This document shows, piece by piece, positions 37,451 through 54,675 of a stretch of DNA of 64,000 nt. Position numbers and translations under genes: made by a program. Every line of letters starts with the position of its first letter. Positions within the stretch are counted from its first letter, which is position 1. A model generated the notes under the pieces. The model worked only from the letters and a program-made list of their open reading frames with translations. It was not told the origin of the DNA and did not search any database. The stretch comes from Hylemonella sp. Lineage in GTDB: Bacteria > Pseudomonadota > Gammaproteobacteria > Burkholderiales > Burkholderiaceae_C. The stretch is taken from positions 248,001-312,000 of the forward strand of contig NZ_JAPZSV010000002.1 of NCBI RefSeq assembly GCF_027532185.1, given 5' to 3'.

Positions 37451-37633
37451 GGGAAGCAATCCGTAGGACGTCGATTTTCGCAGATGAGGAGGCCTGCGGC
37501 CACGCGCACCTCTGCGCCCGGACCCTCCCTGGGTCCGCTACCGCACGGACGGCCCGGCTGGGCGCTCCTAGGATCTCCGGAGCCGTCCACGAGCAGCCTC
37601 GACCTGTACCGTGTCGTCATCCAGGAGCCCCTC

Positions 37634-38943: not shown

Positions 38944-39216
38944 ATGAGCACCACCGCCACCCTGACCGATTTCGAGCGCGAGATTGCCCAGTTCATCGTC
39001 ACCACGCTGAACCTGGAGGTCGCCCCCGACCAGATCTCGCCGACGGACCCGCTGTACGGCGAGGGCCTGGGCCTGGACTCGATCGACGTGCTGGAGATCG
39101 CGCTCGCGGTCTCCAAGCAGTACGGATTCCAGATGCGCTCGGACGATCCCGACAACGTCACCATCTTCAGTTCGCTGCGCAATCTGGCTGCCCACATCGC
39201 CTCGCACCGGGTCTGA
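38944..39216 (+). CDS. Acyl carrier protein (aryl polyene cluster, first)
   Basis: A 90-residue acyl carrier protein. The phosphopantetheine serine is S46 in GLGLDSIDVLE. It would carry the growing polyene or the aryl starter in the type II polyketide system (ApeE/ApeF role in described aryl polyene clusters). It opens the rightward operon of twelve genes ending with the ketoreductase. In-frame sequence upstream of the ATG belongs to another frame of the hydrolase and is not part of the gene. Confidence 0.88.
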   Translation: MSTTATLTDFEREIAQFIVTTLNLEVAPDQISPTDPLYGEGLGLDSIDVLEIALAVSKQYGFQMRSDDPDNVTIFSSLRNLAAHIASHRV

Positions 39217-39235
39217 GCGCGCAGCTCTTCTGGCC

Positions 39236-39763
39236 ATGAAGACCGGTCTGTGGCTCAAGCTGGCGCTGGTCGCCCTGCTGGTGCTGGGCTATCCGCTGGG
39301 CATGCACTGGCTGCTCACGGCCTCGTCCTGGTCGCACCAGGCCCTGGCCTGGTTCAGCCTGGCACAGAACGTGGGCATGCAGCTGCTGCTGGCCCTTTTC
39401 TTCGGTCTGACGCTGCGGCCCGGCCAGGAGCCGCTGATCGCGCGCTTTGCCCGCCGCATCCACGGCGCCGACTACAGCCCGCGCATTGCACGCTACGCAC
39501 GCCAGGCCACATGGGCCTGGACGCTCTTCTTCGTGGCCATGGTGCTGACACCCATTGTGCTCTTCGCCTGGACCTCGGTCGAGGTCTTCTCCTTCTTCGT
39601 CAACGTGCTCTCGCTGCCGCTGCTGGGCGCCATGTTCGTGGCCGAGTACGCCGCGCGCCGCTGGTGCCTGCGCGGCATTGCGCACGTGCCGCTGGCGCGC
39701 AGCTTCACCCTCTACCGCGACGAGCGTCGCGCGGCCGACGCCGTCGCCCCGCCCAAGCCCTGA
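39236..39763 (+). CDS. Small integral membrane protein (aryl polyene cluster)
   Basis: A 175-residue protein with about four hydrophobic helices (about residues 5-25, 38-60, 90-115, 118-140) and a charged C-terminus. It matches in size and position the COG4648-type membrane protein found between the carrier protein and ligase genes in other aryl polyene clusters (ApeG-like, from memory of cluster layout). The biochemical role is unknown. It starts 19 bases after the carrier protein gene. Confidence 0.75.
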   Translation: MKTGLWLKLALVALLVLGYPLGMHWLLTASSWSHQALAWFSLAQNVGMQLLLALFFGLTLRPGQEPLIARFARRIHGADYSPRIARYARQATWAWTLFFVAMVLTPIVLFAWTSVEVFSFFVNVLSLPLLGAMFVAEYAARRWCLRGIAHVPLARSFTLYRDERRAADAVAPPKP

Positions 39764-39765
39764 CC

Positions 39766-41931
39766 ATGCCCGCCTTGTTCTCGCATCGCTCGCCGCAGGC
39801 CGTGATGGCCTGGTCCAACGGTCGTGCCATCACGGCGCTGGACGTCCTGGCCGCCGCGCGTCACATGGCCGCGCGCCTGCCCGAGGGCAGTCCCGTGCTC
39901 AATCTCTGCAGCAAGCGTCACCACTTCGCCGTGGTCCTGGCGGCCGCGCTGCTGCGCGGCGTGCCCCTGCTGCTGCCTTCGACGCGCACACCCGAAATGC
40001 TGCAGCGCCTGGGCCATCAGCACCCAGGCCTGCAGGCCGTCGTGGACGCGCCCGGTGACAGCGGCGGCCTGCCGCAGATCATCTACGAGCGTGGCCCCGT
40101 TCCCACGCCCGGCGATGCCTTCGAGGTGCCCGACATCCCGGCCGATCAGGTCGCCGCCTACGTCTTCACCTCGGGCTCCACCGGCGACCCCGTGCCCCAC
40201 GTCAAGCACTGGGGCCTGCTGGTCGACAACGCCCAGGGCGCGGGCCGGCGCGTGCGCGAATGGCTGGGCACGGACGCGCCCTTCACCGTCACCGGTACCG
40301 TGCCGGCCCAGCACATGTACGGCTTCGAATCGACGGTGCTGCTGCCCCTGCTCAACGAGGGCGTGATCGACGCCAGCCATCCCTTCTACCCGGCCGACAT
40401 CGTGCAGGCGCTGGAGAGCACGCCCGCACCGCGCCTGCTGGTCAGCACACCTTTCCACTTGCGCACCCTGATCGAGTCGGACCTGGCCGTGCCCCCGCTG
40501 GCCCTGCTGCTCAGCGCCACCGCGCCGCTGGCGCCGCAGCTTGCGCGCCGGGCCGAGGAACGACTGGGCGCGCCGCTGCTGGAGATCTACGGCAGCACCG
40601 AGACCGGCCAGATCGCCACGCGCCGCGGCTCGGCCGGCGAACTCTGGCAGACCTTTGACGGCGTGCAGGTCCAGGCCCTGCCCACGCCTGCGGGCGAGGA
40701 GCTGCGCTTCGCGGCCAGCGGCGGCCATGTGGAAGGCGTGGTGCCCTTGTCGGACGTGCTCGATCTGCAGTCGCCCACACGCTTCGCCCTGCTGGGTCGC
40801 CATGCGGACATGGTCAACATCGCGGGCAAGCGCACCTCGCTGGCCTACCTCAACCACCAGCTCAACAGCATCCCCGGCGTGATCGACGGCGCGCTCTACT
40901 GGCCACAGGACGCGGCGCACGATGCCCAGGCCCGCATCCAGCGCCCGCTGGCCTTCGTCGTTGCCCCGGGCCTGGACGAGGCCACGCTGCAGCACGCCCT
41001 GCGCGAGCGCATCGACCCGGCCTTCCTGCCCCGCCCGGTCCATTTCGTGGCTGCGCTGCCGCGCAATGCCACGGGCAAGCTGCCGCAGCAGGCCCTGGCC
41101 GAACTCGCGCGCCAGTTTCACCCGCCCGTCGCCGCCCAGGCTGCGACGCGGCCGCGCTGGAAGCCCTCCCCCCTGGTCACCGGCTCGTTGGGCCTGCACG
41201 CCGTGGCGGCCGCCGGCCTCTTCACGCCGGCCTGGCCCTGGAGCGTGGGCGCGCTCGTCGCCAACCACGCCGTGATCGCGACCACTGGCCTGTGGCCGCG
41301 CAGCACCTGGCTGGGCCCCAACCTGCTGCACCTGCCGCGCCACCGACCCGAGGTGGCCATCACCATCGACGACGGCCCCGATCCCGAGGTCACGCCCGCC
41401 GTGCTGGACCTGCTGGAGCAGCACGGCGCGGTCGCCACCTTCTTCTGCCCGGGCGCGCGGGTGCAGCAGCACCCGGCCCTGGCGCGCGAGATCGTGCGAC
41501 GTGGCCACGCCATCGGCAACCACAGCCAGCACCACCGCCATCACTTCTCGGTCATGGGTCCGGGTGCGCTGCGGCGCGAGATCGGCGTCGCGCAGGACAG
41601 CATCGCCCAGGTCACAGGCGTCAAGCCCAGCTTCTTCCGCGCCCCCGCGGGCCTGCGCAACATCTTCCTCGACCCCGTGCTGCACGCACTGGACCTGCGC
41701 CTGGCCAGCTGGACGCGACGTGGCTTCGATACCCGCACGGGCGACGCGGACCTGGTGCTGCGTCGTCTCACGCGCGGCCTCGCCCAGGGTGACATCCTGC
41801 TGCTGCACGACCACCACGCCGCGCGCACGCCCCAGGGCCGGGCCGTGCTGCTGGACGTGCTGCCGCCGCTGCTCGCCACCCTGCGGGAACGCGGGCTGCA
41901 GACCGTGCCCCTGCGTCCTGAACGGCTCTGA
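39766..41931 (+). CDS. AMP-ligase fused to NodB-type polysaccharide deacetylase
   Basis: A 721-residue two-domain protein. The N-terminal ANL domain (about 1-450) has the P-loop TSGSTGDPVPHVKHWG from T135, YGSTETGQIATR, LGRHADMVNIAGKR and the A10 motif ATGKL with K438. It likely activates the aryl starter acid for loading on carrier protein (ApeH-like). A linker with two hydrophobic stretches follows (about 468-515). The C-terminal NodB domain (about 528-715) has TIDDGPDP (D535, D536), HSQHH (H586, H590), RAPAGLRN and LLLHDHH, so its metal site and catalytic residues look intact. The ATG is three bases after the upstream stop. The ligase-deacetylase fusion is the oddest feature of the cluster. 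Confidence 0.88.
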   Translation: MPALFSHRSPQAVMAWSNGRAITALDVLAAARHMAARLPEGSPVLNLCSKRHHFAVVLAAALLRGVPLLLPSTRTPEMLQRLGHQHPGLQAVVDAPGDSGGLPQIIYERGPVPTPGDAFEVPDIPADQVAAYVFTSGSTGDPVPHVKHWGLLVDNAQGAGRRVREWLGTDAPFTVTGTVPAQHMYGFESTVLLPLLNEGVIDASHPFYPADIVQALESTPAPRLLVSTPFHLRTLIESDLAVPPLALLLSATAPLAPQLARRAEERLGAPLLEIYGSTETGQIATRRGSAGELWQTFDGVQVQALPTPAGEELRFAASGGHVEGVVPLSDVLDLQSPTRFALLGRHADMVNIAGKRTSLAYLNHQLNSIPGVIDGALYWPQDAAHDAQARIQRPLAFVVAPGLDEATLQHALRERIDPAFLPRPVHFVAALPRNATGKLPQQALAELARQFHPPVAAQAATRPRWKPSPLVTGSLGLHAVAAAGLFTPAWPWSVGALVANHAVIATTGLWPRSTWLGPNLLHLPRHRPEVAITIDDGPDPEVTPAVLDLLEQHGAVATFFCPGARVQQHPALAREIVRRGHAIGNHSQHHRHHFSVMGPGALRREIGVAQDSIAQVTGVKPSFFRAPAGLRNIFLDPVLHALDLRLASWTRRGFDTRTGDADLVLRRLTRGLAQGDILLLHDHHAARTPQGRAVLLDVLPPLLATLRERGLQTVPLRPERL

Positions 41932-41948
41932 CTATCAAGGCGCCCACC

Positions 41949-41954
41949 TACAAT
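41949..41954 (+). promoter_or_regulatory. Possible internal promoter -10 before the methyltransferase
   Basis: TACAAT, with CTGACT 15 bases upstream as a weak -35. The hexamer overlaps the first in-frame ATG of the methyltransferase at 41953, which favours the later ATG at 41980 as start. The call rests on the -10 alone. Confidence 0.35.
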
Positions 41955-41979
41955 GCGCCACCCTGGTGCATCCCCTCTC

Positions 41980-42708
41980 ATGTCCAAAGTCCCGCTGCCT
42001 CCCGTCCTGCTCGAACAAGCCACCGCGCCCTACCGCCCGCTGGGCAAGTTCGCCTGGCATTTCGCGCGCGGCAAGCTCGGCGGTGACCCGGCCTTTGCCG
42101 GGCTGTTGCAACGCGGCCTGATCCCGGCCCGCGCGCGTGTGCTCGACATCGGCTGCGGCCAGGGCCTGCTCGCTGCACTGCTGGGCAGCCTCACGGGCAA
42201 CTCGCCGGCCGAGCGCGCTTGGCCAGCGGGCTGGGCTCCGCCGCCCACGGGTGTGCAGGTGCACGGGATCGAACTCATGCCGCGCGACGTCGAACGCGCG
42301 CAACAGGCCCTGGCCCACCTCGGCGAGCGCGCCCGCTTCACGCTGGGCGATATGTGCACCACTGACTTCAGCCCGGCCGACACCGTGGTCATCCTCGACG
42401 TGCTGCACTACGTGAACGAAGCCGCGCAGGAGGATGTGCTGCGTCGCGTGTGGGAAGCGCTGGCGCCCGGTGGCGTGCTGCTGCTGCGCGTGGGCGACGC
42501 TGCGGCCGGCCTGCCTTTCAAGATCAGCAACTGGGTCGACGCGGTGGTCTTCTTCGTGCGCGGCCACGGCCTCTCGCGCCTCTACTGCCGCCCCCTGAGC
42601 GCGTGGCAGGCGCTGTTGCAGCGCCTGGGCTTTGCCGTGGACACCGTCCCCATGCACGCCGGCACGCCCTTTGCCAACATCCTGCTGATCGCCCGCAAGC
42701 CGGCCTGA
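41980..42708 (+). CDS. Class I SAM-dependent methyltransferase (aryl polyene cluster)
   Basis: A 242-residue Rossmann-fold methyltransferase. The SAM-binding motif is VLDIGCGQGLLAALLG; VHGIELMPRDVERAQ and FTLGDMCTTDF follow as motifs II and III. In aryl polyene systems a methyltransferase of this kind modifies the aromatic head group. An insertion of about 20 residues after motif I (GNSPAERAWPAGWAPPP) is noticeable. The alternative start at 41953 would add nine residues. It is followed four bases later by the small dehydratase gene. Confidence 0.82.
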   Translation: MSKVPLPPVLLEQATAPYRPLGKFAWHFARGKLGGDPAFAGLLQRGLIPARARVLDIGCGQGLLAALLGSLTGNSPAERAWPAGWAPPPTGVQVHGIELMPRDVERAQQALAHLGERARFTLGDMCTTDFSPADTVVILDVLHYVNEAAQEDVLRRVWEALAPGGVLLLRVGDAAAGLPFKISNWVDAVVFFVRGHGLSRLYCRPLSAWQALLQRLGFAVDTVPMHAGTPFANILLIARKPA

Positions 42709-42712
42709 GCCC

Positions 42713-43003
42713 ATGACCACGCTGCCGCTGCCCATCGAGACCGACCACCCGGCCTATGCCGGCCACTTCCCGGGCCGGCCGATCCTGCCGGGCGTGGTCC
42801 TGCTCGACCGGGCGCAGCGCGCCCTCGAACTTGCCTGCGGCTGCCGCATCACCGGCCTGGCCCAGGCCAAGTTCCTCAGCCCGGTGACGCCCGGGGAGCT
42901 GCTGGCGCTGGATTACGAGGCCGGCGCTGCCGGCCTGCGCTTTGAGATCCGCTGTGGCACGCGTCGCGTCGCCAGCGGGCGCTACAGCCTCGCCCAGCCA
43001 TGA
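42713..43003 (+). CDS. Small hot-dog fold dehydratase (ApeI-like)
   Basis: A 96-residue single hot-dog protein. The hallmark is HFPGRPILPGVVLLD near residues 18-32, the FabZ/FabA-type active-site region. It is shorter than FabZ (about 145 residues) and matches the compact dehydratase subunit seen in aryl polyene clusters, which acts with a second dehydratase. It overlaps the next gene by 4 bases (ATGA), meaning coupled translation. Confidence 0.8.
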   Translation: MTTLPLPIETDHPAYAGHFPGRPILPGVVLLDRAQRALELACGCRITGLAQAKFLSPVTPGELLALDYEAGAAGLRFEIRCGTRRVASGRYSLAQP

Positions 43004-43938
43004 GCGCCGCGCCCGATCCATCCGCCGACCAGACGCCGACCTGGCTGCAGCGCAAGGAACGCGGCAGCCTGCTGCTGCTGCGCCTCATGACCTGGCTCTC
43101 GCTGACCCTGGGCCGGCGTCTCACGCGCCCCATCGTCTACGGCATTGCGCTCTACTTCGTGCTGGCCGTGCCGGCGGCGCGCCGGGCCTCGCGCGACTAT
43201 CTGCGCCGCGCGCTGGGCCGCCCCGCACGCTGGGGCGATCTGTACCGCCATATCCTGGCCTTCGCCAGCACCATCCACGACCGCGTCTACCTGCTCAACG
43301 ACCGGCACGAGCTCTTCGATCTGCGCATCCACGGTCAGGACATCTTCGAGGGTCCGAATGCGCCGCAGGGCGGCTTCCTGATCTTCGGCGCCCACCTGGG
43401 CAGCTTCGAGGTGCTGCGCGCCATCGCCCGGCGTGACAGCAGGCAGCGGGTCTGCGCTGCCATGTACCCGGAGAACGCGCGCCTGCTCAACAACATGCTG
43501 GCCCAGGTCAACGCCGAGGTCGTGCTGGACATCATCCCGCTGGGCCGCATGGATTCCATCTTCCAGCTCAACGAGCGCATCGAGGCCGGCGCCATGGTCG
43601 CCCTGCTGGCCGACCGCGCTGTCGTGCCCGACACCTACCTGAGCGTGCCCCTCTTTGGCGAAACCGCGCCCTTCCCGCTCGGCCCCTTCCGGCTCGCGGC
43701 CATCCTGCGCCGCCCGGTCTGCTTCATGACCGGCCTGTACCGCGGCGGCAATCGCTACGACATCCACTTCGAGCGCCTGGCCGATTTCAGTGCCGTTCCC
43801 GCAGGCCAACGCGATGCCGCGCTGCGTGCGGCCATCGAACGCTACGCGGTGTTACTGGAAAAGCACGCCAGCGCCGCACCCTACAACTGGTTCAATTTCT
43901 ACGACTTCTGGAAGGGAGACGCCTGTGCATCGCGTTGA
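43000..43938 (+). CDS. LpxL/HtrB-type acyltransferase (COG4261-like)
   Basis: A 312-residue lysophospholipid acyltransferase-superfamily protein with one N-terminal membrane segment (about 43-60). The HxxxxE active-site motif is in FGAHLGSFEVLRA. Further conserved pieces are ALLADRAVVPDTYLSVPLFG and YNWFNFYDFWK, the latter typical of COG4261 proteins. In aryl polyene clusters it is thought to attach the polyene or a fatty acid to the lipid anchor. It overlaps both neighbours (4 and 14 bases). Confidence 0.82.
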   Translation: MSAAPDPSADQTPTWLQRKERGSLLLLRLMTWLSLTLGRRLTRPIVYGIALYFVLAVPAARRASRDYLRRALGRPARWGDLYRHILAFASTIHDRVYLLNDRHELFDLRIHGQDIFEGPNAPQGGFLIFGAHLGSFEVLRAIARRDSRQRVCAAMYPENARLLNNMLAQVNAEVVLDIIPLGRMDSIFQLNERIEAGAMVALLADRAVVPDTYLSVPLFGETAPFPLGPFRLAAILRRPVCFMTGLYRGGNRYDIHFERLADFSAVPAGQRDAALRAAIERYAVLLEKHASAAPYNWFNFYDFWKGDACASR

Positions 43939-44512
43939 GGCTTTCGTGCGGCGCGCGCTGCTGCTCGCCCTGCTGTTCACCGGCTTGCCGGCCGCGCACG
44001 CCGCCGACTGGCAGCTGGCCGACCTCATGCAGCAGCTGGCCCAGGTCAAGAACGCACAGGCCCGCTTCGTCGAGCGCAAGTACATCGCCCTGCTGGACAA
44101 GCCGGTCGAGTCCTCGGGCGAGCTCTCCTTCACCGCGCCCGACCGCATGGAGATGCGCACGCTGCGGCCCAAGAAGCAGTCTCTGCTGCTCGACGGCAAC
44201 CGCCTGACCATGGAGCAGGACGGACGCGCGCGCACGGTCAGCCTGCAGTCCTACCCCGAGGTGGCGGCCTTTGTCGAAGGCATACGCGGTACCCTGGCCG
44301 GCGACCGCCAGGCGCTGGAGCGCGTCTACCAGGTGCATCTGATCGGCAATGCGGCGCGCTGGCAGCTGCTGCTGGTGCCGCGTGAGGCGGCCATGGGACG
44401 CATCATCAGCCGCATCCGCATCGGTGGTAGCCAGGGCGAGGTGCTCAGCGTGGCCTATGACCACGCCGATGGCGACCGCTCCGAGATGCAGATCACGCCC
44501 GTACGCCCCTGA
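43925..44512 (+). CDS. LolA-like periplasmic carrier protein
   Basis: A 195-residue exported protein. The signal peptide VHRVEAFVRRALLLALLFTG ends at AAHA before ADWQ. The mature part has LMQQLAQVKNAQARFVERKY and YIALLDKPVESSGELSFTAPDR, typical of the LolA/outer-membrane lipoprotein carrier fold. It probably carries the polyene lipid across the periplasm after export by the MMPL protein that follows. The start is GTG at 43925, preceded by GGGAG; no ATG is available at the signal peptide. Confidence 0.82.
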   Translation: MHRVEAFVRRALLLALLFTGLPAAHAADWQLADLMQQLAQVKNAQARFVERKYIALLDKPVESSGELSFTAPDRMEMRTLRPKKQSLLLDGNRLTMEQDGRARTVSLQSYPEVAAFVEGIRGTLAGDRQALERVYQVHLIGNAARWQLLLVPREAAMGRIISRIRIGGSQGEVLSVAYDHADGDRSEMQITPVRP

Positions 44513-44513
44513 C

Positions 44514-46877
44514 ATGCATCTCCTGCGCCGCCACCTGCCCATCCTGCTCTGGCTCGCCGTGCTCGCGGGCTTTGGCGCCGTGATCCTGCGCACGCCCGTG
44601 GTCACCGACCTCTCGGCCTTCATGCCGAGCGCGCCCAGCGAACGCCAGCAGATGCTGGTCGACCAGTTCAAGGAGGGCATCATCGCCCGCCTCATCATCG
44701 TGGGCATCGAGGGCGGCGACGCTGCCGAGCGCGCGCGCCTCTCGCGCGCCCTGGCCGACAGCCTGCGCCCGCAGACGGATTTCATCGGCGTGCAGAACGG
44801 CAGCGCCGAGGAACAGGCGCGTGACCGCCACTACTTCTTCGAGAACCGCTACCTGCTCAGTCCCGCCGTCACGCCTGAACGCTACAGCGAGCCCGGCCTG
44901 CGCGACGCGATCGGGGCCACCCTGGCAGACATCTCGGGCAGCGCCGGCATGCTGATCAAGCAGCTGCTGCCGCGCGATCCTACGGGCGAAATTCGCGAGC
45001 TGCTCGCGGCCTTCGAAGGCGGCGAGCAGCCGCCCAGCACCGAGGGCGTCTGGTCCACGCGCGATGGCAGCCGCGCCCTGCTGCTGCTGCAGACCCGTGC
45101 CGAAGGCTCGGATCTCGAAGCCCAGGCGCGTGCGCTTGCGGCCGTGCAGCGGACTTTCGATGCCATCCCCCAGCGCCAGGCCGACACCCGACTGCTCATG
45201 ACCGGCACCGGTGTGTTCTCCGTGCAGTCGCGCGGCTTGATCCAGGGCGAGGTGCGGCGCCTGGCCATTGCCAGCCTGGTGCTGGTCGTGGGACTGCTCT
45301 GGCTGGTCTACCGTTCCTGGCGCCTGCTCGGGCTCAACCTGCTGCCCATGCTCACGGGCACACTGGCCGGCATCACGGCCGTGGGCCTGGTCTATGGCGA
45401 GGTGCACGGCATCACCCTGGGCTTCGGCACCACCATGATTGGCGAGGCCGTGGACTACGCCATCTACCTCTTCGTGCAACGCCCCGGCCCCATGGCGCAG
45501 CGCGCGTTCTGGCGCACGCTCTGGCTGGGCCTGCTGACGTCGGTGGCCGGCTTCCTGGCCCTGCTGGGCTCGGGCTTTCCGGGCCTGGTGCAGCTGGGCC
45601 TGTACTCGACGGCCGGCCTGCTGGCCGCCGTGCTGGTCACGCGCTACGTGCTGCCCCAGCTCATGCCCGCGCAGCTGCCCGCCATCGAGCTGCCGCGCAC
45701 CGGCGCATTCCTGCAGCGTGCCGTGCAGCTGGCACCGCGCCTGCGCGGCCTGCTGCTGCTCTTCGTCGCCGGCATGCTGGCCGTGGTGGCCCTGCGCGCG
45801 GACAGCATCTGGAACCGCAGCATCTCGGCGCTCAACCCGGTGCCGCGTGCCGCGCAGCAGCTCGATGAGGAACTGCGCCGCGACCTCGGCGCCTCCGAGC
45901 TGCGCTACCTCGCCGTGCTCACCGCCCCCGATGCCGAGCAGGGTCTGCAGCAGTCCGAGCGCGCCAGCCGCGTGCTGCAGGCGCTGAGCCGCGAGGGCGT
46001 GCTCGCCGGCCACAGCGCGCCCAGCCAGGTGCTGCCCAGCCGCGCCAGCCAGCAGGCCCGCCAGGCCGCCCTGCCCGAGGCCACCGAGCTGCGGCGACGT
46101 CTCGCGACGGCCCTGGCCGGTCAGCCGCTCAAGCCCGAGCGCCTGCAGGGCTTTGTGGACGATGCCGAGCGCAACCGCACGCGCCCGCTGCTGACGCGTG
46201 CCGACCTTGAGGGCACGGCCGCCGCCCTGCTCTACGACACCCTGCTGGTCCAGCGCGAACGCGACGTGCTTGTCTTGCTGCCCCTGCGCCCCATGCTGCG
46301 CGAAGGCGAATCTGTGCTGGACCTGGACCGCATCGACGCCGCGCTGCATGCCGAAGGCCTGGCCCAGGCCACGGTGATCGACCTGCTGGCCGAAACCAAT
46401 GCGCTGTTCGACAGCTACCTCCACGAAGCCCTGGTCTACTCCGGCCTGGGCTGCCTGGCCATCCTGGCCATCCTGCTCTTCATGCTGCGCTCCCTCGTGC
46501 GGGCTCTACGCGTCGCCCTGCCACTCGTCTGCGCCGTGCTGGGTGTGACCGGCGCACTGCTGCTGGCCGGCACCGCGCTGACCATCCTGCACCTGGTGGG
46601 CCTGCTGCTGGTCGTGGCCATCGGCTCCAACTACGCGCTGTTCTTCGACAGCAGCAACACCGCCGCCAGCCCGCAGCAGCACCGCCTGACCCTGATCTCC
46701 CTGGTCACAGCCAACCTGACCATCGTGGGCAGCTTCGGCATGCTCGCGCTGTCCAGCGTCCCGGTGCTCACCATCCTCGGCGTCACCGTGGGCCTGGGCA
46801 CCATGCTGGCCCTGCTGTTCTCGGCCATCCTCGCGCAGGGCGCGATTTCGCGGCCCCCGGTAAAATTGCCCTCCTGA
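44514..46877 (+). CDS. MMPL/RND-type lipid exporter
   Basis: A 787-residue polytopic protein. One N-terminal helix (LPILLWLAVLAGFGAVIL) is followed by a periplasmic domain. Five helices lie at about 240-380, with the family motif GFGTTMIGEAVDYAIYLF. A second N-terminal-type helix and periplasmic domain come next, then five C-terminal helices with AIGSNYALFFDSSN. This duplicated layout is the RND/MMPL fold. It likely moves the aryl polyene or its lipid from inner membrane to the LolA-like carrier. It starts one base after the previous stop. Confidence 0.88.
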   Translation: MHLLRRHLPILLWLAVLAGFGAVILRTPVVTDLSAFMPSAPSERQQMLVDQFKEGIIARLIIVGIEGGDAAERARLSRALADSLRPQTDFIGVQNGSAEEQARDRHYFFENRYLLSPAVTPERYSEPGLRDAIGATLADISGSAGMLIKQLLPRDPTGEIRELLAAFEGGEQPPSTEGVWSTRDGSRALLLLQTRAEGSDLEAQARALAAVQRTFDAIPQRQADTRLLMTGTGVFSVQSRGLIQGEVRRLAIASLVLVVGLLWLVYRSWRLLGLNLLPMLTGTLAGITAVGLVYGEVHGITLGFGTTMIGEAVDYAIYLFVQRPGPMAQRAFWRTLWLGLLTSVAGFLALLGSGFPGLVQLGLYSTAGLLAAVLVTRYVLPQLMPAQLPAIELPRTGAFLQRAVQLAPRLRGLLLLFVAGMLAVVALRADSIWNRSISALNPVPRAAQQLDEELRRDLGASELRYLAVLTAPDAEQGLQQSERASRVLQALSREGVLAGHSAPSQVLPSRASQQARQAALPEATELRRRLATALAGQPLKPERLQGFVDDAERNRTRPLLTRADLEGTAAALLYDTLLVQRERDVLVLLPLRPMLREGESVLDLDRIDAALHAEGLAQATVIDLLAETNALFDSYLHEALVYSGLGCLAILAILLFMLRSLVRALRVALPLVCAVLGVTGALLLAGTALTILHLVGLLLVVAIGSNYALFFDSSNTAASPQQHRLTLISLVTANLTIVGSFGMLALSSVPVLTILGVTVGLGTMLALLFSAILAQGAISRPPVKLPS

Positions 46878-46909
46878 GCCGGGCGTCCCTCCCGCTGCCT
46901 CCCTCGTTC

Positions 46910-48103: not shown

Positions 48104-48900
48104 GCCAGCTCACCGTTCATCTGCAGGGCATCGGTGTCTACGGCCCCGGCCTCACGGGCTGGGCCCAGACCGCCGAGGTGCTGGCCGGGCGCAGCGCCTA
48201 CGCGAGTGCCCCCCTCCAGCTGCCTGCGGCCGAGGCCCTGCCCGCGGCCGAGCGCCGCCGCGCCGGCACCACGATCAAGCTGGCCTTCGCCGTGGGCTTC
48301 GAGGCCATCCGCCAGGCCGGTGCCGATGCGTCCACGCTGCGTTCGGTCTTCACCTCCAGCGGTGGCGACTGCGACAACTGCCACGCCATCCTCGAAACCC
48401 TGGCCTCGGCCGACCGCGCGGTTTCGCCCACGCGCTTCCACAACTCGGTGCACAACGCGCCCTCGGGCTATTGGAGCATCGCCACAGCCTGCCGCGCCAC
48501 CACGACCAGCCTGTGCGCCTACGACGGCTCCTTCGCGGCCGGTCTGCTGGAAGCGGCCACCCAGGTGCGCAGCGCGCAGGAGCCCTGCCTGCTGCTGACC
48601 TACGACACGCCCTACCCCGGCCCGCTGGGCGCCTCGCGCCGCATCAGCCAGCCCTTCGGCCTGGCCCTGCTGCTGGCGCCTACCCCGGCACCCGGCACGC
48701 TGGCCACGCTCGATGTGGCACTGAGCCAGCAGGCGCCACAGGGCCTGGACGACGCCGCGCTCGACGCCCTGCGCCTGAGCGCCCCCGCGGCTCGCAGCCT
48801 GCCGCTGCTGCAAGCTGTCGCGCGCGGTGCGCGCGCCCAGCTGGCGCTGGAGTATCTCGATGGGATGTCGCTCGATGTCAGCGTCCAGCCCGCTGCCTGA
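48100..48900 (+). CDS. Chain-length-factor-like ketosynthase partner (ApeC-like)
   Basis: A 266-residue protein matching the N-terminal half of a ketosynthase (PF13723 type). It has VFTSSGGDCDNCH and FHNSVHNAPSGYWSIATACRATTTSL, retaining a cysteine (C131) at the expected nucleophile position. The C-terminal half with both active-site histidines is absent. It is therefore not a stand-alone condensing enzyme and should act as partner of the preceding ketosynthase. It overlaps that gene by 4 bases and the following gene by 26. Confidence 0.85.
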   Translation: MSQLTVHLQGIGVYGPGLTGWAQTAEVLAGRSAYASAPLQLPAAEALPAAERRRAGTTIKLAFAVGFEAIRQAGADASTLRSVFTSSGGDCDNCHAILETLASADRAVSPTRFHNSVHNAPSGYWSIATACRATTTSLCAYDGSFAAGLLEAATQVRSAQEPCLLLTYDTPYPGPLGASRRISQPFGLALLLAPTPAPGTLATLDVALSQQAPQGLDDAALDALRLSAPAARSLPLLQAVARGARAQLALEYLDGMSLDVSVQPAA

Positions 48901-49327
48901 CCACGCCTGGATCGCGGCACGTATTCCGCATGCTGGCACCATGTGCCTGCTCGATCGCGTGCTCGCCTGGGACGCGGCACACATCCATTGCCTGGCCACC
49001 AGCCACACCGGGGCCGACCACCCGCTGGCTCTCGCTGGCACGCTGGGCATGGCCAATGGCATCGAGTACGCGGCCCAGGCCATGGCCGTGCACGGTGCCC
49101 TGCTCGCGGGCAGCGAGACCGCCCCCGCAGCGGGCTTTCTGACCAGCGTGCGCGACGTGCAGTGGGAAGGCACGCGCCTGGATGAACTCGGCCCCGAACT
49201 GCAGGTGCATGCCGAACGTCTCTCGGGCGATGTGCACACGATCCTCTACGGCTTCCGCCTCGAGGCGGCGGGCCGCACGGTACTGAGCGGGCGCGCCAGC
49301 GTCATGCTAGATGCAGGCACCCCCTGA
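48875..49327 (+). CDS. Hot-dog dehydratase (ApeP-like)
   Basis: A 150-residue hot-dog protein with IPHAGTMCLLDRVLAWD at the N-terminus and GMANGIEYAAQAMAVHG around the central helix. It resembles ApeP/COG4706 3-hydroxyacyl-ACP dehydratases, proposed to act as a pair with the small dehydratase. The start ATG at 48875 lies inside the previous gene; the reading frame before it shows no family similarity. The stop codon is embedded in the first bases of the repeat at 49317-49398. Confidence 0.8.
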   Translation: MSASSPLPDHAWIAARIPHAGTMCLLDRVLAWDAAHIHCLATSHTGADHPLALAGTLGMANGIEYAAQAMAVHGALLAGSETAPAAGFLTSVRDVQWEGTRLDELGPELQVHAERLSGDVHTILYGFRLEAAGRTVLSGRASVMLDAGTP

Positions 49328-49398
49328 GCCGCTGCGCGTCTCCCCCCTCAAGGGGGGCTCACCCACTGGCCCGGCAAAGCCGGTTCCACGGGTGCCCT
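49317..49398 (+). repeat. Intergenic repeat, copy 2
   Basis: An 82-base element in the same class as copy 1 (26256-26334) and in opposite orientation to it on the chromosome. Blocks: CCTGAGCCGCTGCGCGTCT, CCCCCCTCAAGGGGGG (perfect hairpin) and CCCGGCAAAGCCGGTTC (hairpin). Its first bases supply the last codons and the stop of the ApeP-like gene. It separates the dehydratase from the ketoreductase and may attenuate read-through inside the operon. Confidence 0.82.
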
Positions 49399-49429
49399 CG
49401 ATAAGTCATACCATCTCAGAGGCCTCCCT

Positions 49430-50149
49430 ATGAAACATGCACTGGTCACCGGCGGCAGCGGCGCCATCGGCGCAGCCATCTGCCGCCGACTCGCGGCCGA
49501 TGGCTTGCACGTCATCATCCACGCCAACCGCAATGCGGCTGCGGCCGAAGCGCTGCGCGAAGAGATCGCAGCCGGCGGCGGCTCCGCCTCCACGGTGGTC
49601 TTCGACGTGGCCGACGAGGCTGCCACGCGCGCGGTGCTCGAACCGCTGGTGTCGCAGCAGCCCATCCAAGTGCTGGTCAACAACGCCGGCATCCACGACG
49701 ACGCCGTCTTCCCCGGCATGACGAGCGCGCAGTGGCACAGGGTGATCGACGTCTCGCTGCACGGCTTCTTCCATGTGACGCAGCCGCTGACCCTGCCCAT
49801 GATCCGCACGCGCTGGGGCCGCATCATCACCATCACCTCGATTGCCGGCCTCACGGGCAACCGCGGCCAGAGCAATTACGCGGCGGCCAAGAGTGGCCTG
49901 CACGCGGCCAGCAAGACGCTGGCACTGGAGCTGGCCAGCCGCGGCATCACGGTCAATGCGATCGCGCCGGGCATCATCACCTCCGAAATGAGCCAGGACG
50001 CTTTCGGCGCCGAGGACATCGCGCGCCTCGTGCCCATGAAGCGGGCCGGACGTCCTGAGGAAGTGGCCGCACTGGTCGGGTTCCTGGCCTCGGAACCGGC
50101 AGCCTACATCACCGGCCAGGTGATCTCGGTCAATGGCGGGATGGTCTGA
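49430..50149 (+). CDS. 3-ketoacyl-ACP reductase (ApeQ-like, FabG family)
   Basis: A 239-residue short-chain dehydrogenase. The cofactor site is VTGGSGAIGAAICRRLAADG; NNAGIHDD follows; the catalytic Ser-Tyr-Lys residues are in ITSIAGLTGNRGQSNYAAAKSGL. It reduces the beta-keto group in each elongation round, using NADPH by analogy with FabG. It is the last gene of the rightward aryl polyene block. The repeat and a possible AT-rich start region (49399-49420) precede it, so it may have its own promoter. Confidence 0.9.
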   Translation: MKHALVTGGSGAIGAAICRRLAADGLHVIIHANRNAAAAEALREEIAAGGGSASTVVFDVADEAATRAVLEPLVSQQPIQVLVNNAGIHDDAVFPGMTSAQWHRVIDVSLHGFFHVTQPLTLPMIRTRWGRIITITSIAGLTGNRGQSNYAAAKSGLHAASKTLALELASRGITVNAIAPGIITSEMSQDAFGAEDIARLVPMKRAGRPEEVAALVGFLASEPAAYITGQVISVNGGMV

Positions 50150-50152
50150 GCC

Positions 50153-50824
50153 TCAGGCGGGCAGAAAGCGCGCGCCGAACCAGCGCCGATAGCCCGCCAG
50201 GGCCAGCAGGGCACCGGCGCCGCCGAGCAGCAGGCCGCCCAGCACATCGATGAACACATGCTGTTTGGTCGCCATGGTCGAGTAGACGATGAGCGCGCAC
50301 CAGAACCAGTTCATGGCCTGCCAGCCGCGCCCGAACCCCACAGCGCGCAGCTGGGCCTGCAGCCAGAAGGCCGAATAGAAGGCGATGGCCACGTGCAGCG
50401 AAGGACAGGCATTGCCCGCGGTGTCCACGCCTTCGAGCAGGGCCAAACCCGTGCCCGGCGGCCGCTCGAAGGGTGGAATGACCGTGGGCCAGAGGTAGAA
50501 GCACAACAGCCCCGCCAGACAGGTCAGCCCCACGGCCAGACCGTAATAGGCCAGCGGGCGCAAGGCCGGCATGAAAGCCGGTGGCAGGCAGGTGTAGAAC
50601 CAGAGCGAGAGGTAGGGAATCCAGGCCCACCACTGCATGGGTGTGACGTGATCAAGCCAGGTCAGCGGCATCACGGCCACCTCGGCATGCGGGTAGCGCA
50701 GCAGGAGGAAATAGCCCTGGAAGAAGCCCCAGATGAAGATCGCGGAACCAGCCGCCTTGAGCCACCACAGACGCCAGAGCAATTGGTTGAGCATGCGTGC
50801 CGGCGTCGGGGAAGCAGTGGTCAT
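50153..50824 (-). CDS. PAP2-family membrane phosphatase
   Basis: A 223-residue protein with about six membrane helices. The PAP2 signature appears as ACPSLHVAIAFYSA (motif 2) and STMATKQHVFIDVLGG (motif 3, with H and D of the catalytic triad). Motif 1 is weak. It could hydrolyse a lipid phosphate such as phosphatidate or undecaprenyl phosphate during assembly of the polyene lipid. It ends three bases after the ketoreductase, convergently, and diverges from the PlsC-like gene with 38 bases between starts. Confidence 0.78.
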   Translation of the reverse strand: MTTASPTPARMLNQLLWRLWWLKAAGSAIFIWGFFQGYFLLLRYPHAEVAVMPLTWLDHVTPMQWWAWIPYLSLWFYTCLPPAFMPALRPLAYYGLAVGLTCLAGLLCFYLWPTVIPPFERPPGTGLALLEGVDTAGNACPSLHVAIAFYSAFWLQAQLRAVGFGRGWQAMNWFWCALIVYSTMATKQHVFIDVLGGLLLGGAGALLALAGYRRWFGARFLPA

Positions 50825-50862
50825 GGTCAATAATCGATCCCTGTGATGAGATCGTACCAGCG

Positions 50863-51627
50863 ATGATGGACCGGGCCCTCGTGCGCCTGCTGTGGCGTGG
50901 CTACGAAATGTTGGCCATGGTCTTGGGCCTGGGCCTGCTCGCCCTGGGTTGCGTGTTGTCGCTGCCCCTGTTCCTGCTACTGCTCGGACTGCCCTCGCCT
51001 CTGCAGCGACGCGTGGCACGCCACATCATCCGCACCGGGTTCAGCCTCTACCTGCGCTTGCTCCAGCGACTCTGCCAGGTGCGCCTGGATCTGCAAGAAC
51101 TCGAGGCCCTGCGGCACATCCGGCAGCCGCTGATCGTCGTGGCCAACCACCCCTCCCTGCTCGACGCCGTGCTGCTGCTCAGCGTGCTGCCCAACGCCAG
51201 CTGCGTGCTCAAGGCTGGTCTGCTGCACAACCCGCTGTTCGGGATGGGTGCGCGCATGGCGGGCTATGTGAGCAACGAGGACGCGCGTCAGATGATCCTG
51301 GACTCCACACGCAGCCTGCAGGAGGGGGCGCAGTTCATCCTCTTCCCCGAAGGCACGCGCACCACGGACTTCCCGCTCAATCCGCTGAGCAGCGCCTGCG
51401 TCCTGCTGTCCAAGCAGAGCCGTGTGCCACTGCAGACCGTGATCCTGGAGTTCTCGACGCCTTACCTCGGCAAGCACTGGGGGCTGTTGCGACCACCCGA
51501 GCTGCCGCTGAGCATCCGCGCGCGCCTGGGTCGGCGCTTCGAGCCGCCGGAGTACACGGCCACCGCACTGGCAGAACTCGAAGCCTGTTTCCGGCAGGCG
51601 CTGGACAGCAGCTCAGACAGGCGCTGA
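50863..51627 (+). CDS. PlsC-type 1-acylglycerol-phosphate acyltransferase
   Basis: A 254-residue acyltransferase. One N-terminal membrane helix (about residues 12-36; MLAMVLGLGLLALGCVLSLP) precedes the motifs ANHPSLLDAV (HxxxxD) and FPEGTRTTD. Within a polyene cluster it probably builds the glycerolipid anchor or adds an acyl chain to it (ApeD-like role). Two adjacent ATGs at 50863 and 50866 are both possible starts. Its 3' end overlaps the converging dehydratase gene by 15 bases. Confidence 0.83.
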   Translation: MMDRALVRLLWRGYEMLAMVLGLGLLALGCVLSLPLFLLLLGLPSPLQRRVARHIIRTGFSLYLRLLQRLCQVRLDLQELEALRHIRQPLIVVANHPSLLDAVLLLSVLPNASCVLKAGLLHNPLFGMGARMAGYVSNEDARQMILDSTRSLQEGAQFILFPEGTRTTDFPLNPLSSACVLLSKQSRVPLQTVILEFSTPYLGKHWGLLRPPELPLSIRARLGRRFEPPEYTATALAELEACFRQALDSSSDRR

Positions 51628-52119
51628 AGCCTGAGTCGTCGGCAGGCTGTGTTCGAGCGTCTGGCGTGGCGTGTTGATCACGAGGATCTCCACCTGCGCG
51701 GCCTCAACGCCAGCAACCGTGAGCTGGGCCGAGGCCACCGCGGCGGTCTCGGACATGGGGCGTGTACGCAGGTCGACCTCGACGACCTCGCCTGGCAGCA
51801 CTGGCCGCTTAAAGCTGCACTTGCGGATGCCGGCCAGCAGACCGACGTAGTCCCCCTCAAGCCGGCGCGCCACGGGCGAGCCCGCGCGCATGCCGGCCCC
51901 GGCGACCTGGGCCACGAGCTCCACCAGCATCACGCCTGGCACCAGGGGCAGGCCCGGGAAATGCCCGCGCAGCACGGCGCTGTCGGCCGGCCAGCAGGCC
52001 CGGGCCTGGAAGTGGTCATGGTCGAGCACGGTGAGCGCGTGCACGAGCTGCATTTCGCCGCGGTGCGGCAGCAGCGCATAGACGCCGGTGGCGTCCAGTT
52101 CGATCGGATAGGCGTCCAT
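51613..52119 (-). CDS. FabZ-like 3-hydroxyacyl-ACP dehydratase
   Basis: A 168-residue hot-dog dehydratase. LLPHRGEMQLVHALTVLD and the active-site LRGHFPGLPLVPGVMLVELVAQ are clear FabZ-type motifs. It is the third dehydratase of the cluster and lies in the leftward block glycosyltransferase-ACP-KS-dehydratase. That block looks like a small self-contained module (ACP, KS, DH) that could start or extend chains separately from the rightward set. It begins 28 bases after the ketosynthase. Confidence 0.85.
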   Translation of the reverse strand: MDAYPIELDATGVYALLPHRGEMQLVHALTVLDHDHFQARACWPADSAVLRGHFPGLPLVPGVMLVELVAQVAGAGMRAGSPVARRLEGDYVGLLAGIRKCSFKRPVLPGEVVEVDLRTRPMSETAAVASAQLTVAGVEAAQVEILVINTPRQTLEHSLPTTQASAPV

Positions 52120-52147
52120 CGTGCGCGTGCCCCTCGCTTGCGGCGCC

Positions 52148-53404
52148 TCAGGCGTAGCGACGCGCGATCAGCGAGACATTGCTGCCGCCGAAGGCGAAGG
52201 AGTTGGACATCACCGCGCGCAGCTTCTGGCCATGGCGTGCCTCGCGCGGCACATAGTCCAGGGCGCAGCGCGGGTCTGGATGGTCCAGATAGGCGGTCGG
52301 CGGGATGCTGCCGCTGTGCAGGGCCAGCACGCTGAAGGCGAACTCGGTGGCCCCAGCCGCGCCGATCAGGTGGCCGTGCAAGGCCTTGGTGGAACTCACG
52401 GGCAGGCGTCGGGCATGGTCGCCGAAGACCTGGGCGATAGTCTCGCTCTCGATCACATCACCCGCCTCGGTGGCTGTGCCATGGGCATTGAGGTAGTCGA
52501 TGGCCTCGGGCGCCATGCCCGCCTCGTCCAGCGCCATGCGGATGGCGCGGTACTGGCCCGCGCTCGAGGGCAGGGTCAGGTGCTCGGCGTCGCTGCTGCT
52601 GCCGTAGCCGCAGAGCTCACCGTAGATCGTGGCGCCACGACGCAGCGCGGACTCGGCTGTCTCCAGCACCAGGGCGGCCGCGCCCTCGGCCAGCACGAAG
52701 CCGCTGCGGTCCTTGTCAAAGGGGCGGCAACTCGCGGCCGGGTTGTCAGGATGGGGCTTGGCCATGACGCGCAGCGCGTTCCAGGCCATGAAGACGCCGG
52801 GTACGTTCATGGCCTCGGCACCCACGACCACGATGGCGTCGGCATAGCCGTGGCGGATGGTGCGGCAGGCCTCGCCCAGGGCCATCGCCGAGGAGGAACA
52901 GGCCACGCTGTAGGTATGGGTGGGCCCTCTGAACTGGTGCGCCATGGAGATGGCCGCCGTGGCCGCATTGGGCATCAGGCGGGGCACCGACAGCGGGTGC
53001 ATGACGGTCGGGTTGCGCCCGGCCTGCAGGCTCTCGTGCAGACGCTTGTAGAGCGCCTCGCCTGTGGTGGCGCCGCCCAGGCCGATGCCGGCATAGACGC
53101 CAACGCGATCGGGGTCGAGGTCCCAGGCCTCGGCCCGCGCGTCGGCCAGGGCCTCGCGGCTGGCCAGCAGGGCGAACTGGGTGGCGCGGTCCAGACCCTG
53201 CGCGTTGCGGTCCAGCGGCTGTGCGAACGCGGGATCGACATCGGCCGACAGGGCGTTAGGCAGCCATTGGGTGATCTCCGGCGCCGCGGGCCGCACCGCG
53301 CCTTCGGCGCGCAACAGGCGTTCGAAGCTGGCCTGGCGCGTCAGGCCCAGGGGCGTCAGCAGGCCGATGCCTGTGACCACGACGCGCTGCAGCGTGTGCG
53401 CCAT
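52148..53404 (-). CDS. Beta-ketoacyl-ACP synthase (ApeR/FabF-like)
   Basis: A 418-residue ketosynthase with an intact triad: C169 in YSVACSSSAMAL, H308 in LNAHGTATEAGD and H345 in TKALHGHLIGAAGA, with K340. FabF-like length and the N-terminus VVVTGIGLLTPLG are typical. It is the second complete ketosynthase of the cluster and a candidate for priming or lipid-chain extension. The ATG at 53404 is followed by the conserved start; longer in-frame extension overlaps the ACP gene and is not likely. Confidence 0.9.
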   Translation of the reverse strand: MAHTLQRVVVTGIGLLTPLGLTRQASFERLLRAEGAVRPAAPEITQWLPNALSADVDPAFAQPLDRNAQGLDRATQFALLASREALADARAEAWDLDPDRVGVYAGIGLGGATTGEALYKRLHESLQAGRNPTVMHPLSVPRLMPNAATAAISMAHQFRGPTHTYSVACSSSAMALGEACRTIRHGYADAIVVVGAEAMNVPGVFMAWNALRVMAKPHPDNPAASCRPFDKDRSGFVLAEGAAALVLETAESALRRGATIYGELCGYGSSSDAEHLTLPSSAGQYRAIRMALDEAGMAPEAIDYLNAHGTATEAGDVIESETIAQVFGDHARRLPVSSTKALHGHLIGAAGATEFAFSVLALHSGSIPPTAYLDHPDPRCALDYVPREARHGQKLRAVMSNSFAFGGSNVSLIARRYA

Positions 53405-53424
53405 GCCGGAGGAAAAGGGTGGAT

Positions 53425-53709
53425 TCAGGCCGCCTTGCCCTGCAGCGAGGCGGGCTCGGGCAGCTGACCGTTGTGGGCGGCGCGGATCGTGGCCTCGATG
53501 TCGGCCACCATGTCGTTGAAGCTCATGCTGCTGTAGCGCGCGGGGTCGTGCACCTGGAAGCCGTAGAGGTCTTCCACCTCGAAGAGCATTTCCACCACAC
53601 CCAGCGAGTCCAGACCCAGGTCCTTGACCATGAGGTCGGCACGGTCGAACTCGGACGGATCGACATTGAATTGCTGGACCACGAAGTCCTGGATGATCTG
53701 ACGCAACAT
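53425..53709 (-). CDS. Acyl carrier protein (aryl polyene cluster, second)
   Basis: A 94-residue acyl carrier protein with phosphopantetheine serine S35 in LGLDSLGVVEM. It differs from the first carrier protein (DSLGVVEM against DSIDVLEI), so the two probably serve different partners. It opens the leftward ACP-KS-DH run, 20 bases before the ketosynthase. Confidence 0.88.
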   Translation of the reverse strand: MLRQIIQDFVVQQFNVDPSEFDRADLMVKDLGLDSLGVVEMLFEVEDLYGFQVHDPARYSSMSFNDMVADIEATIRAAHNGQLPEPASLQGKAA

Positions 53710-53844
53710 GCTTGCTCTTACCCTCTGGCCTCCCCTGGCCTGCCAGCGGCTGCCGATGGATGGGCAGGATGGCAGACGTTACGGGAATTGTGTTTATAGG
53801 ACGCCGCAGCGCAGGAAGGTCCTGTGACTGCGGACAAGGGAGGG

Positions 53845-53850
53845 ATTTTA
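53845..53850 (-). promoter_or_regulatory. Possible -10 for the leftward ACP-KS-dehydratase run
   Basis: On the minus strand GATAAAAT, about 136 bases before the second ACP gene in a 183-base gap. A second candidate TATAAA lies at 53793-53798. No convincing -35 accompanies either. Confidence 0.35.
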
Positions 53851-53892
53851 TCCAAAATCCCCCCGCAAACCATGGGGAGTTAGCCCGGGTAC

Positions 53893-54675
53893 TCAGCGCG
53901 GCCGGCCGGCCAGGCGCCTTGCCAGAAGCAGCGGCAAGCGCAGCAGGAAGCCGCACATGAGCCGGGTGTGCATCCAGGTCAGCAAGGCGTTGTCGCGCAG
54001 GTAGTTGAAGTGAGACACCCCGCCCTCGCCGGCCTGCAGGTACTTGACCGGTGCGTCGCGGTTGACCGGCCAGACGCCCCGCCAGCACAGGCGCACGGCG
54101 GCCTCGATGTCGAAATCGAAGCGCCGCATCCAGCGTTGGCCGCGCATGATGGCCACCAGCGGGGCCACGGGGTAGACGCGAAAGCCGTAGAGCGAATCGC
54201 CGATGCCCATCCACAGGGTCTCGAGATTGGCCCAGGCATTGGACACCTTGCGCCCCTGCACACGCAGGGCCGGGGCACTGGCATCGAAGACCGGTTTGCC
54301 CAGGATCATGTGCCGAGGCTGCGCCTGTGAGGCCTGCATGAAAGCCGGGATCAGCCAGGCCGGGTGCTGGCCATCCGAATCCATGGTCAGGGCATGCGTG
54401 TAGCCCTCGGCCTGGGCGGCCTGCAGGCCGTGCAGCACGGCCGCGCCCTTGCCCTGGTTGTGTTCGAGCACGAAGACGCGCAAATGAGGCAGCTCCTGCG
54501 CCAGGGCCTGCAGTTGCGCCCCGGTGCCGTCGGTGCTGCCATCGACCACCACCCAGACGGGCGCCCATTGCTGTAGCGCTTCACGCACGGTCTCCAGCAC
54601 CTTGGCGCCAGCGTTGTAGGTCGGAATCAGGACCAGGTGGGTGGTCGAAGGCTCGGGGCTGCGTGCGTCAGGCAT
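53893..54675 (-). CDS. Family 2 glycosyltransferase
   Basis: A 260-residue GT-A fold enzyme. Motifs: LVLIPTYNAGAKV, VVDGSTDGTG, and the metal-binding TMDSDGQHP. A basic and hydrophobic C-terminus (LLRLPLLLARRLAGRPR) suggests membrane association. It resembles dolichol-phosphate-mannose-synthase-type enzymes. In aryl polyene clusters a similar domain probably adds a sugar to the lipid head. It is the most upstream gene of the leftward block and could be the sugar donor step for the NodB deacetylase domain of the fusion protein. Confidence 0.83.
   Translation of the reverse strand: MPDARSPEPSTTHLVLIPTYNAGAKVLETVREALQQWAPVWVVVDGSTDGTGAQLQALAQELPHLRVFVLEHNQGKGAAVLHGLQAAQAEGYTHALTMDSDGQHPAWLIPAFMQASQAQPRHMILGKPVFDASAPALRVQGRKVSNAWANLETLWMGIGDSLYGFRVYPVAPLVAIMRGQRWMRRFDFDIEAAVRLCWRGVWPVNRDAPVKYLQAGEGGVSHFNYLRDNALLTWMHTRLMCGFLLRLPLLLARRLAGRPR

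Follow-up and report, generated by a model that had tools for sequence, protein, structure and literature searches.

Described systems close to the locus reported here include the aryl polyene (APE) cluster apeA-R of Escherichia coli and Xenorhabdus doucetiae, the arcuflavin cluster of Azoarcus sp. BH72 and the flexirubin cluster of Chitinophaga pinensis. In some APE metabolites, the polyene is linked to N-acetylglucosamine (GlcNAc) by ApeJ (PMC8776678, which cites a 2020 preprint), and a deacetylase is a known component of such clusters, encoded in Azoarcus by a separate gene, arcN (PMC3949708). Within the genus, an APE cluster of Hylemonella gracilis NS1 has been likened by antiSMASH to that of X. 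doucetiae (PMC9948732). APEs are yellow pigment lipids of the outer membrane. Here, we describe a predicted APE pigment-lipid cluster in Hylemonella sp. (assembly GCF_027532185.1), located in a stretch of 64,000 nucleotides (positions 248,001 to 312,000 of contig NZ_JAPZSV010000002.1, forward strand; hereafter the window). The kind of cluster is already known; what stands out is a clade-specific fusion of its AMP ligase to a polysaccharide deacetylase and a striking replacement site on the chromosome.

Cluster identity

Pfam scans were run on 20 open reading frames (ORFs) of the window, 18 of them within the cluster; coordinates are those of the window, on the plus strand unless marked minus. 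The initial annotation had proposed an aryl polyene/xanthomonadin-type cluster at 38944-54675, and its coordinates and nearly all of its gene calls hold. The ApeO-type ketosynthase (KS) KS1 (46910..48103), a ketoacyl-synt protein, has 7f28_B (2.5e-78) and 6qsp_A (1.5e-76) as best PDB matches. Its truncated ApeC-type partner or chain length factor (CLF; 48100..48900; PF13723, Ketoacyl-synt_2, 5.7e-30) matches only 6qsp_B and 7f28_A at E ≤ 0.01. The hot-dog dehydratase DH2 (48875..49327, or from 48860) is assigned to the ApeP type from its position and profile. It matches no family in Pfam or NCBIfam, and a 17-row profile of it finds a single PDB chain at E ≤ 0.01, the FabA/FabZ dehydratase 6qsr_B (1.4e-9). 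We take 7F28 to be the ApeO-ApeC pair of Acinetobacter baumannii and 6qsr_B to be X. doucetiae ApeP. Judged by homology, the APE type is fixed by these matches of KS1 and its partner to 7F28 and to 6QSP, the ApeO-ApeC pair of X. doucetiae (PMC8358021), and by that of the DH2 profile to 6qsr_B. The cluster further has a dedicated acyl carrier protein (ACP), a ligase, a FabG/ApeQ-type ketoreductase (KR; 49430..50149; PF00106, adh_short, 2.1e-52), additional dehydratases, an MMPL/RND exporter and a LolA-like carrier. The ApeE/ArcV-like ACP1 (38944..39216; PF00550, 9.5e-9) heads the cluster in most mapped relatives, as it does here. Chance assembly of the cluster is excluded, since the identical gene order recurs in four further genomes of the genus (loci L042, L045, L046 and L048).

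The ligase-deacetylase fusion

The ORF at 39766..41931 comprises 721 codons in one frame and encodes an aryl-acid AMP ligase (residues ~1-450; PF00501, PF13193), a linker, a hydrophobic helical hairpin (469-508) and a NodB/CE4 polysaccharide deacetylase (~513-721). It had been annotated as an AMP-ligase, with the deacetylase domain (Polysacc_deac_1, PF01522, 1e-26, residues 525-637) overlooked. The substrate of the ligase is presumably an aromatic acid. A stop-free fusion of 718-728 residues is also encoded in L042 (genome G312), L045 (G308), L046 (G309) and L048 (G302), the four congeners with the same cluster (type A) that have both halves on the contig, and thus in 5 of 5 such genomes with the window included. 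In the two congeners with an unfused cluster (type B), the ligases end in their own stop after 459 (L049, G314) and 456 residues (L050, G318). As the same stop-free fusion is found in four congeners while the type B ligases have their own stop, it is not an assembly error.

A scan of named loci extended to the best 80 of 582 relatives, with fusions among weaker matches not visible to it. Four of these 80 (L075, L076, L077 and L078) carry the fusion, and all belong by sequence to a Curvibacter/Hylemonella-like clade; the carriers are Curvibacter sp. PAE-UM, a Curvibacter metagenome-assembled genome (MAG), a member of the Burkholderiaceae and a Burkholderiales MAG. Close relatives with the two genes separate are a Hylemonella and a Curvibacter MAG. 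Locus L077 ends at a contig edge, and L078 has unread bases. The other ligases of the 80 comprise 44 unfused ones, one in an unexplained long frame (L108) and 31 fused to the dehydratase DH1, an ApeI-like hot-dog protein (42713..43003 in the window; PF07977, 7e-6; ApeI-like PF22818, 0.0048, below its cut-off). Ligase-DH1 fusions are thus common in betaproteobacterial APE clusters, for example L081, L085 and L114. In a family search of 299 genomes, 70 match, and in 64 of the 70 the ligase side and the deacetylase side are matched separately, mostly no more than ~15 kb apart, with a distance of ~0.9 Mb in G079 and a few pairs on different contigs; among the matches listed, no other spans both halves stop-free. 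Ligase and deacetylase are therefore encoded separately as a rule. No ligase-deacetylase fusion was found in the literature searched, which covered neither bioRxiv nor most subscription journals, and in the one paper found to mention both aryl polyenes and polysaccharide deacetylases, the text in question deals with capsule genes.

Both parts of the fused protein are under purifying selection; in six pairs, dN/dS is 0.09-0.28 for the ligase, 0.12-0.36 for the NodB domain and 0.23-0.70 for the linker. Mechanistic coupling of the two enzymes is not established by these values despite the selection on both halves, because ligase-DH1 fusions are common. The chances are even that neighbouring genes were simply joined after a deletion in an ordinary APE cluster, with no coupling of function. 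Such an accident would agree with the recurrence of ligase-to-next-gene fusions in the DH1 cases, with the fast evolution of the linker and with the fact that both halves retain nearly their full unfused length, but every type A genome showing both halves keeps the fusion, despite ligase divergence of up to ~19%. The question bears on coupling and not on the identity of the cluster.

The deacetylase active site is intact in the fusion, with a NodB fold bearing the Asp-His-His metal site and the catalytic Asp/His expected of CE4 enzymes. In an alignment of 107 rows, in which some genomes were entered twice, D535, D536, H586 and H590 are conserved throughout; R625 and G629 are present in all 106 rows reaching them, as are W649, D655, H681 and D682 in all 105 reaching them, and P627 is variable (P in 88 of 106). 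In the structure model, the ligase half has a predicted local distance difference test (pLDDT) score mostly below 60 up to about residue 360, being covered by 6 of 26 rows, and no conclusion is drawn from it.

Two helices are predicted in the hairpin (469-484 and 490-508), and the mean number of lysines and arginines over 105 rows is 1.7 before it, 0.3 in its loop and 3.3 behind it. The ligase end is cytoplasmic, because the ligase requires ATP and ACP, and two helices would bring the chain back to the same side; we infer that the NodB domain is held at the membrane by the hairpin and faces the cytoplasm. A periplasmic orientation of the deacetylase, with an exported lipid or peptidoglycan as its target and the ligase half merely hanging in the cytoplasm, is unlikely. 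Structurally, the domain comes closest to deacetylases or esterases of peptidoglycan, xylan and chitin, which are mostly extracellular enzymes, and the hairpin helices, of 16 and 19 residues, are short; however, the cytoplasmic ligase end and the lysine- and arginine-rich flanks on both sides of the hairpin argue against such a topology.

Mosaic ancestry and the shared chromosomal site

Comparison with the type B congeners G314 and G318 divides the cluster into parts of different history. Identity to the window is 76-85% for the ligase, the deacetylase, ACP1, the ArcM/ApeB-like S-adenosylmethionine methyltransferase (41980..42708, start possibly 41953; PF13649, 4.6e-13, scanned as 41953-42708) and the GT2 glycosyltransferase (53893..54675, minus; PF00535, 4.2e-21), which is predicted to transfer an N-acetylhexosamine to lipid. 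It is 60 and 85% for a small hydrophobic protein of 175 residues (39236..39763), ApeG/ArcU-like by position, which has an equivalent place in most mapped relatives and no Pfam or NCBIfam match; the label COG4648/ApeG is presumptive. In contrast, only 43-48% identity is shared by DH1, the LpxL-type acyltransferase AT at the ArcR position (43000..43938; PF03279, Lip_A_acyltrans, 1.9e-10), the LolA-like carrier (43925..44512; PF19574, LolA_3, 3.3e-19) and the ApeM/ArcP-like MMPL/RND exporter of the replaced block (44514..46877; PF03176, 9.5e-8). In G314 and G318, these four genes sit between the ligase and the deacetylase. A genome of another genus, G125 (L072), is closer to the window, with 54-63% for DH1, AT, LolA and MMPL, and with 75% for KS1 as against 67-68% in G314 and G318.

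The main trees held at most 33 chosen rows (the window, 6 congeners and 26 others). Fused and unfused congeners form one clade, with support of 98-100, for ACP1, the 175-residue protein, the ligase, the deacetylase, the methyltransferase and the PAP2 phosphatase (50153..50824, minus; PF01569, 2.2e-11). By the approximately unbiased test, their common clade is rejected for MMPL (p 2.4e-9), LolA (0.018) and AT (0.047), and is not rejected for KS1 (0.068), CLF (0.30), DH1 (0.36), DH2 (0.35), KR (0.64) and GT2 (0.50). The MMPL gene of the window falls into one group with those of L072, two Pseudogulbenkiania and two MAGs (support 100). The cluster is therefore a mosaic, whose ends are common to the unfused congeners and whose MMPL, LolA and AT genes are of different ancestry. 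The fusion might have formed when the exporter and acyltransferase genes normally lying between ligase and deacetylase were lost, joining the two proteins, with a divergent block replacing the lost genes downstream.

In trees of smaller sets (9 to 13 rows), the fused-protein ligases do not form a clade (p 0.033), with L050 nested among them, and the tests are undecided for ACP1, the 175-residue protein, the deacetylase, the methyltransferase and GT2 (p 0.07-0.46). It is therefore likely that genes were exchanged within the genus. Two Betaproteobacteria MAGs (L150, L154) have the order ligase-DH1-deacetylase-KS1, with no detectable AT, LolA or MMPL gene between.

The site of the cluster was surveyed in 26 genomes of the genus. 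On its left, outside the cluster, it is bounded by a Dus-type gene (36455..37459, minus), which keeps this place whether or not a congener carries the cluster. On its right, a sulfite-exporter-like gene (SulE; 54906..55574, minus), present in 21 of the 26 genomes, is followed by HemN-like and FNR-like genes. The names of these flanking genes are putative. The fused type A cluster is complete in five genomes (the window, G312, G308, G309 and G302), and in four more (G307, G313, G315 and G316) the type A order is seen on contigs too short to include the ligase. Type B occupies the site in G314 and G318. A third, divergent APE-like cluster (type C), with parts 25-49% identical and the same flanks, is found in G229 and G299 (L051, L052, L170 and L171). 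Six genomes have an empty site, with Dus and SulE ~60 bp to 1.2 kb apart (G145, G317, G014, G306, G303 and G298). Of the remaining seven, which were assigned to none of these groups, G300, G301, G304, G310 and G311 have no SulE match and G305 and G319 a weak one.

Together with the product proposed below, we slightly favour the view that the cluster is a cassette open to exchange at the site between Dus and SulE-HemN-FNR. The shared site offers natural replacements (three versions and an empty one) in a single genus for comparing pigment function. An alpha/beta-hydrolase gene with a glycine-rich N-terminus (37625-38773) also sits between Dus and ACP1; a counterpart is found in G318, and several other congeners have none. 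As none is found between Dus and ACP1 in L042, L045, L046, L048 and L049, the gene was rejected as a cluster member.

The second ketosynthase block

The two facing blocks of the initial annotation are present as a rightward run of twelve genes and a leftward block at the end. Between them, however, PAP2 points left and a PlsC-type acyltransferase (50863..51627; PF01553, 8e-13) right, before the leftward genes for a FabZ-like dehydratase DH3 (51613..52119, minus; PF07977, 1.3e-10; FabZ TIGR01750, 2.5e-19, below its cut-off), the ketosynthase KS2 (52148..53404, minus; PF00109, 8.7e-44), ACP2 (53425..53709, minus; PF00550, 1.6e-5) and GT2. KS2 is FabF (KAS II)-like, with PRK07314 above its cut-off and FabF proteins as best PDB matches (1j3n, 323 bits, versus 219 for 4ewg, taken as ApeR; PMC8358021). 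PlsC, DH3, KS2 and ACP2 are missing at the site in G314 and G318, which retain the rest, with PAP2 retained in G314. These four genes look like a dispensable accessory, because KS2 is FabF-like and the block is absent from two congeners. The proposal that they mark two elongation or loading modules was accordingly not upheld. That the leftward KS2-ACP2-DH3 genes form a second polyene elongation module seems improbable, though the three genes co-occur in other relatives (L065, L070 and L120) and a second KS, ApeR, is frequent in APE clusters (PMC8358021), since KS2 resembles FabF rather than ApeR and the block is dispensed with at the same site. A fatty acyl chain of the anchor would be an equally good candidate for its product.

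Source of the starter acid

None of the 18 cluster ORFs encodes a chorismate lyase, ammonia-lyase, DUF3261 or 4HBT protein by Pfam, as had been annotated, and the suggestion that the starter acid is not made within the cluster proved stronger than claimed, because the corresponding families were not found genome-wide either. The genome holding the window is 3.33 Mb and an estimated 100% complete, with the cluster on its contig C10. UbiC (PF04345) and XanB2-type chorismatase (PF21168) were not found in this genome or in G302, G308, G318 and G229, and are present in 6 and 7, respectively, of the 16 genomes included in each search; neither was found in G329. Aromatic ammonia-lyase (PF00221) was not found in the window genome (5 of 14 control genomes match), and Rv2949c-like proteins (PF01947) were not found in it or in those four congeners either, with none of 12 genomes giving a match (3 of 14 controls match). 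In the window genome, the sole one searched for UbiA, four UbiA-family genes match. Since these genes are present and ubiquinone normally requires 4-hydroxybenzoate, a divergent or unknown source of this acid is likely, and a divergent UbiC under the threshold is the simplest answer. Inspection of the open frames around the UbiA genes, made with no family scan, found no candidate chorismate lyase.

Proposed product and mechanism

Our preferred reading, which we hold to be somewhat better than an even bet, is an APE pigment-lipid cluster of a betaproteobacterial kind, arcuflavin-like and equipped with a deacetylase, with an APE glycolipid bearing a deacetylated N-acetylamino sugar as product. 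We infer the following route. The ligase domain would load the aromatic acid onto ACP1, and KS1/CLF, KR and DH1/DH2 would elongate it to a polyene, whose ring is probably methylated by the methyltransferase. GT2 may add an N-acetylamino sugar to a lipid, and the NodB domain, held by its hairpin on the cytoplasmic face, may then deacetylate the sugar. The LpxL- and PlsC-type acyltransferases would add both the polyene and the fatty acyl chains, a phosphate would be taken off by PAP2, and MMPL and LolA could carry the lipid to the outer membrane.

For GT2, the only PDB match at 0.001 is a dolichol-P-mannose synthase, and its NCBIfam matches, all below their cut-offs, include PgaC/IcaA (1.2e-13) and PpgS (9e-10), two of the best, which would point to action on N-acetylhexosamines. 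The deacetylation of GlcNAc-phosphatidylglycerol (PG) to glucosamine (GlcN)-PG by GpgD provides a precedent (PMC12713373). By this analogy, the simplest reading is an anchor whose amino sugar derives from a GlcNAc-lipid, since the cluster has a conserved deacetylase and a GT2 with N-acetylhexosamine-type matches. Through the fusion, the deacetylase would be bound to the cytoplasmic side, where the chain is started, and the lipid is predicted to carry a free amino sugar. Against this product, the arcuflavin and flexirubin clusters also carry a deacetylase, yet their products are described as polyene-dialkylresorcinol compounds. For Chitinophaga, the authors ascribe to the deacetylase and adjacent genes a role in export "by yet unknown mechanisms" (PMC3992019).

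A bolder extension, to which we give a little less weight than even to a periplasmic deacetylase, would see in the site an O-antigen-like locus that swaps whole APE clusters of different ancestry, where one swap created a membrane-tethered ligase-deacetylase coupling the start of the chain to a free-amine anchor, with a positively charged pigment and an undescribed starter route. Least probable of all is a product of arcuflavin/flexirubin type, in which the polyene is esterified with a dialkylresorcinol (DAR), in a pathway served by the deacetylase. In its favour, the genes are similar to arcM-X of Azoarcus (PMC3949708) and the arc and flx clusters both include a deacetylase, but the genome has one gene of the β-ketoacyl-ACP synthase III type (PF08541), ~2 kb from a FabF-like gene on contig C8, and no DarB candidate was seen, though no DarB model was used.

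Comparison with known systems

The cluster described here shares with the arcuflavin cluster arcA-X (PMC3949708) an ACP, a hypothetical protein, the AMP ligase, two dehydratases, two acyltransferases, LolA, the exporter, polysaccharide deacetylase (arcN), methyltransferase (arcM), KS, truncated KS, reductase and glycosyltransferase. The two differ in that the Azoarcus genes lie in two loci, include XanB2 (arcB), a halogenase and a separate dar cluster, and encode ligase and deacetylase separately. With apeA-R of E. coli and X. doucetiae (PMC8253772), the window has in common ApeO/ApeC, ApeH, ApeI, ApeP, ApeQ, the ACPs, the LolA-like ApeL, the exporter ApeM, the methyltransferase ApeB and acyltransferases, while the deacetylase, PAP2 and FabF-like second KS are on the side of the window, and a separate GT2 and acyltransferase replace the glycosyltransferase/acyltransferase ApeJ. 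No match to the ApeK thioesterase, ApeN/DUF3261 (Pfam, at 0.01) or ApeA was found among the cluster ORFs; ApeK and ApeN/DUF3261 occur in the E. coli cluster and are taken as not universal.

The flexirubin cluster (PMC3992019) shares a putative polysaccharide deacetylase, an acyltransferase, LolA, a glycosyltransferase and an exporter (flxP-U), and differs in its 4-coumarate starter and DAR partner, whereas the window genome has no ammonia-lyase match or visible DarB candidate. In the glucosaminyl-PG pathway of Pseudomonas aeruginosa (PMC12713373), a glycosyltransferase likewise places GlcNAc on a lipid and a deacetylase yields GlcN; the enzymes there are a GT4 and a COG3233 deacetylase, against a GT2 and a NodB domain in the window, so that the two may be compared in how they work only. 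As for the fusion itself, Acinetobacter ApeH ("ApeH-Nt", PMC8358021) and the ligase-DH1 fusions are APE ligases with an extra C-terminal part, as here; the partner is the deacetylase in the window and DH1 in 31 of the best 80 of 582 relatives.

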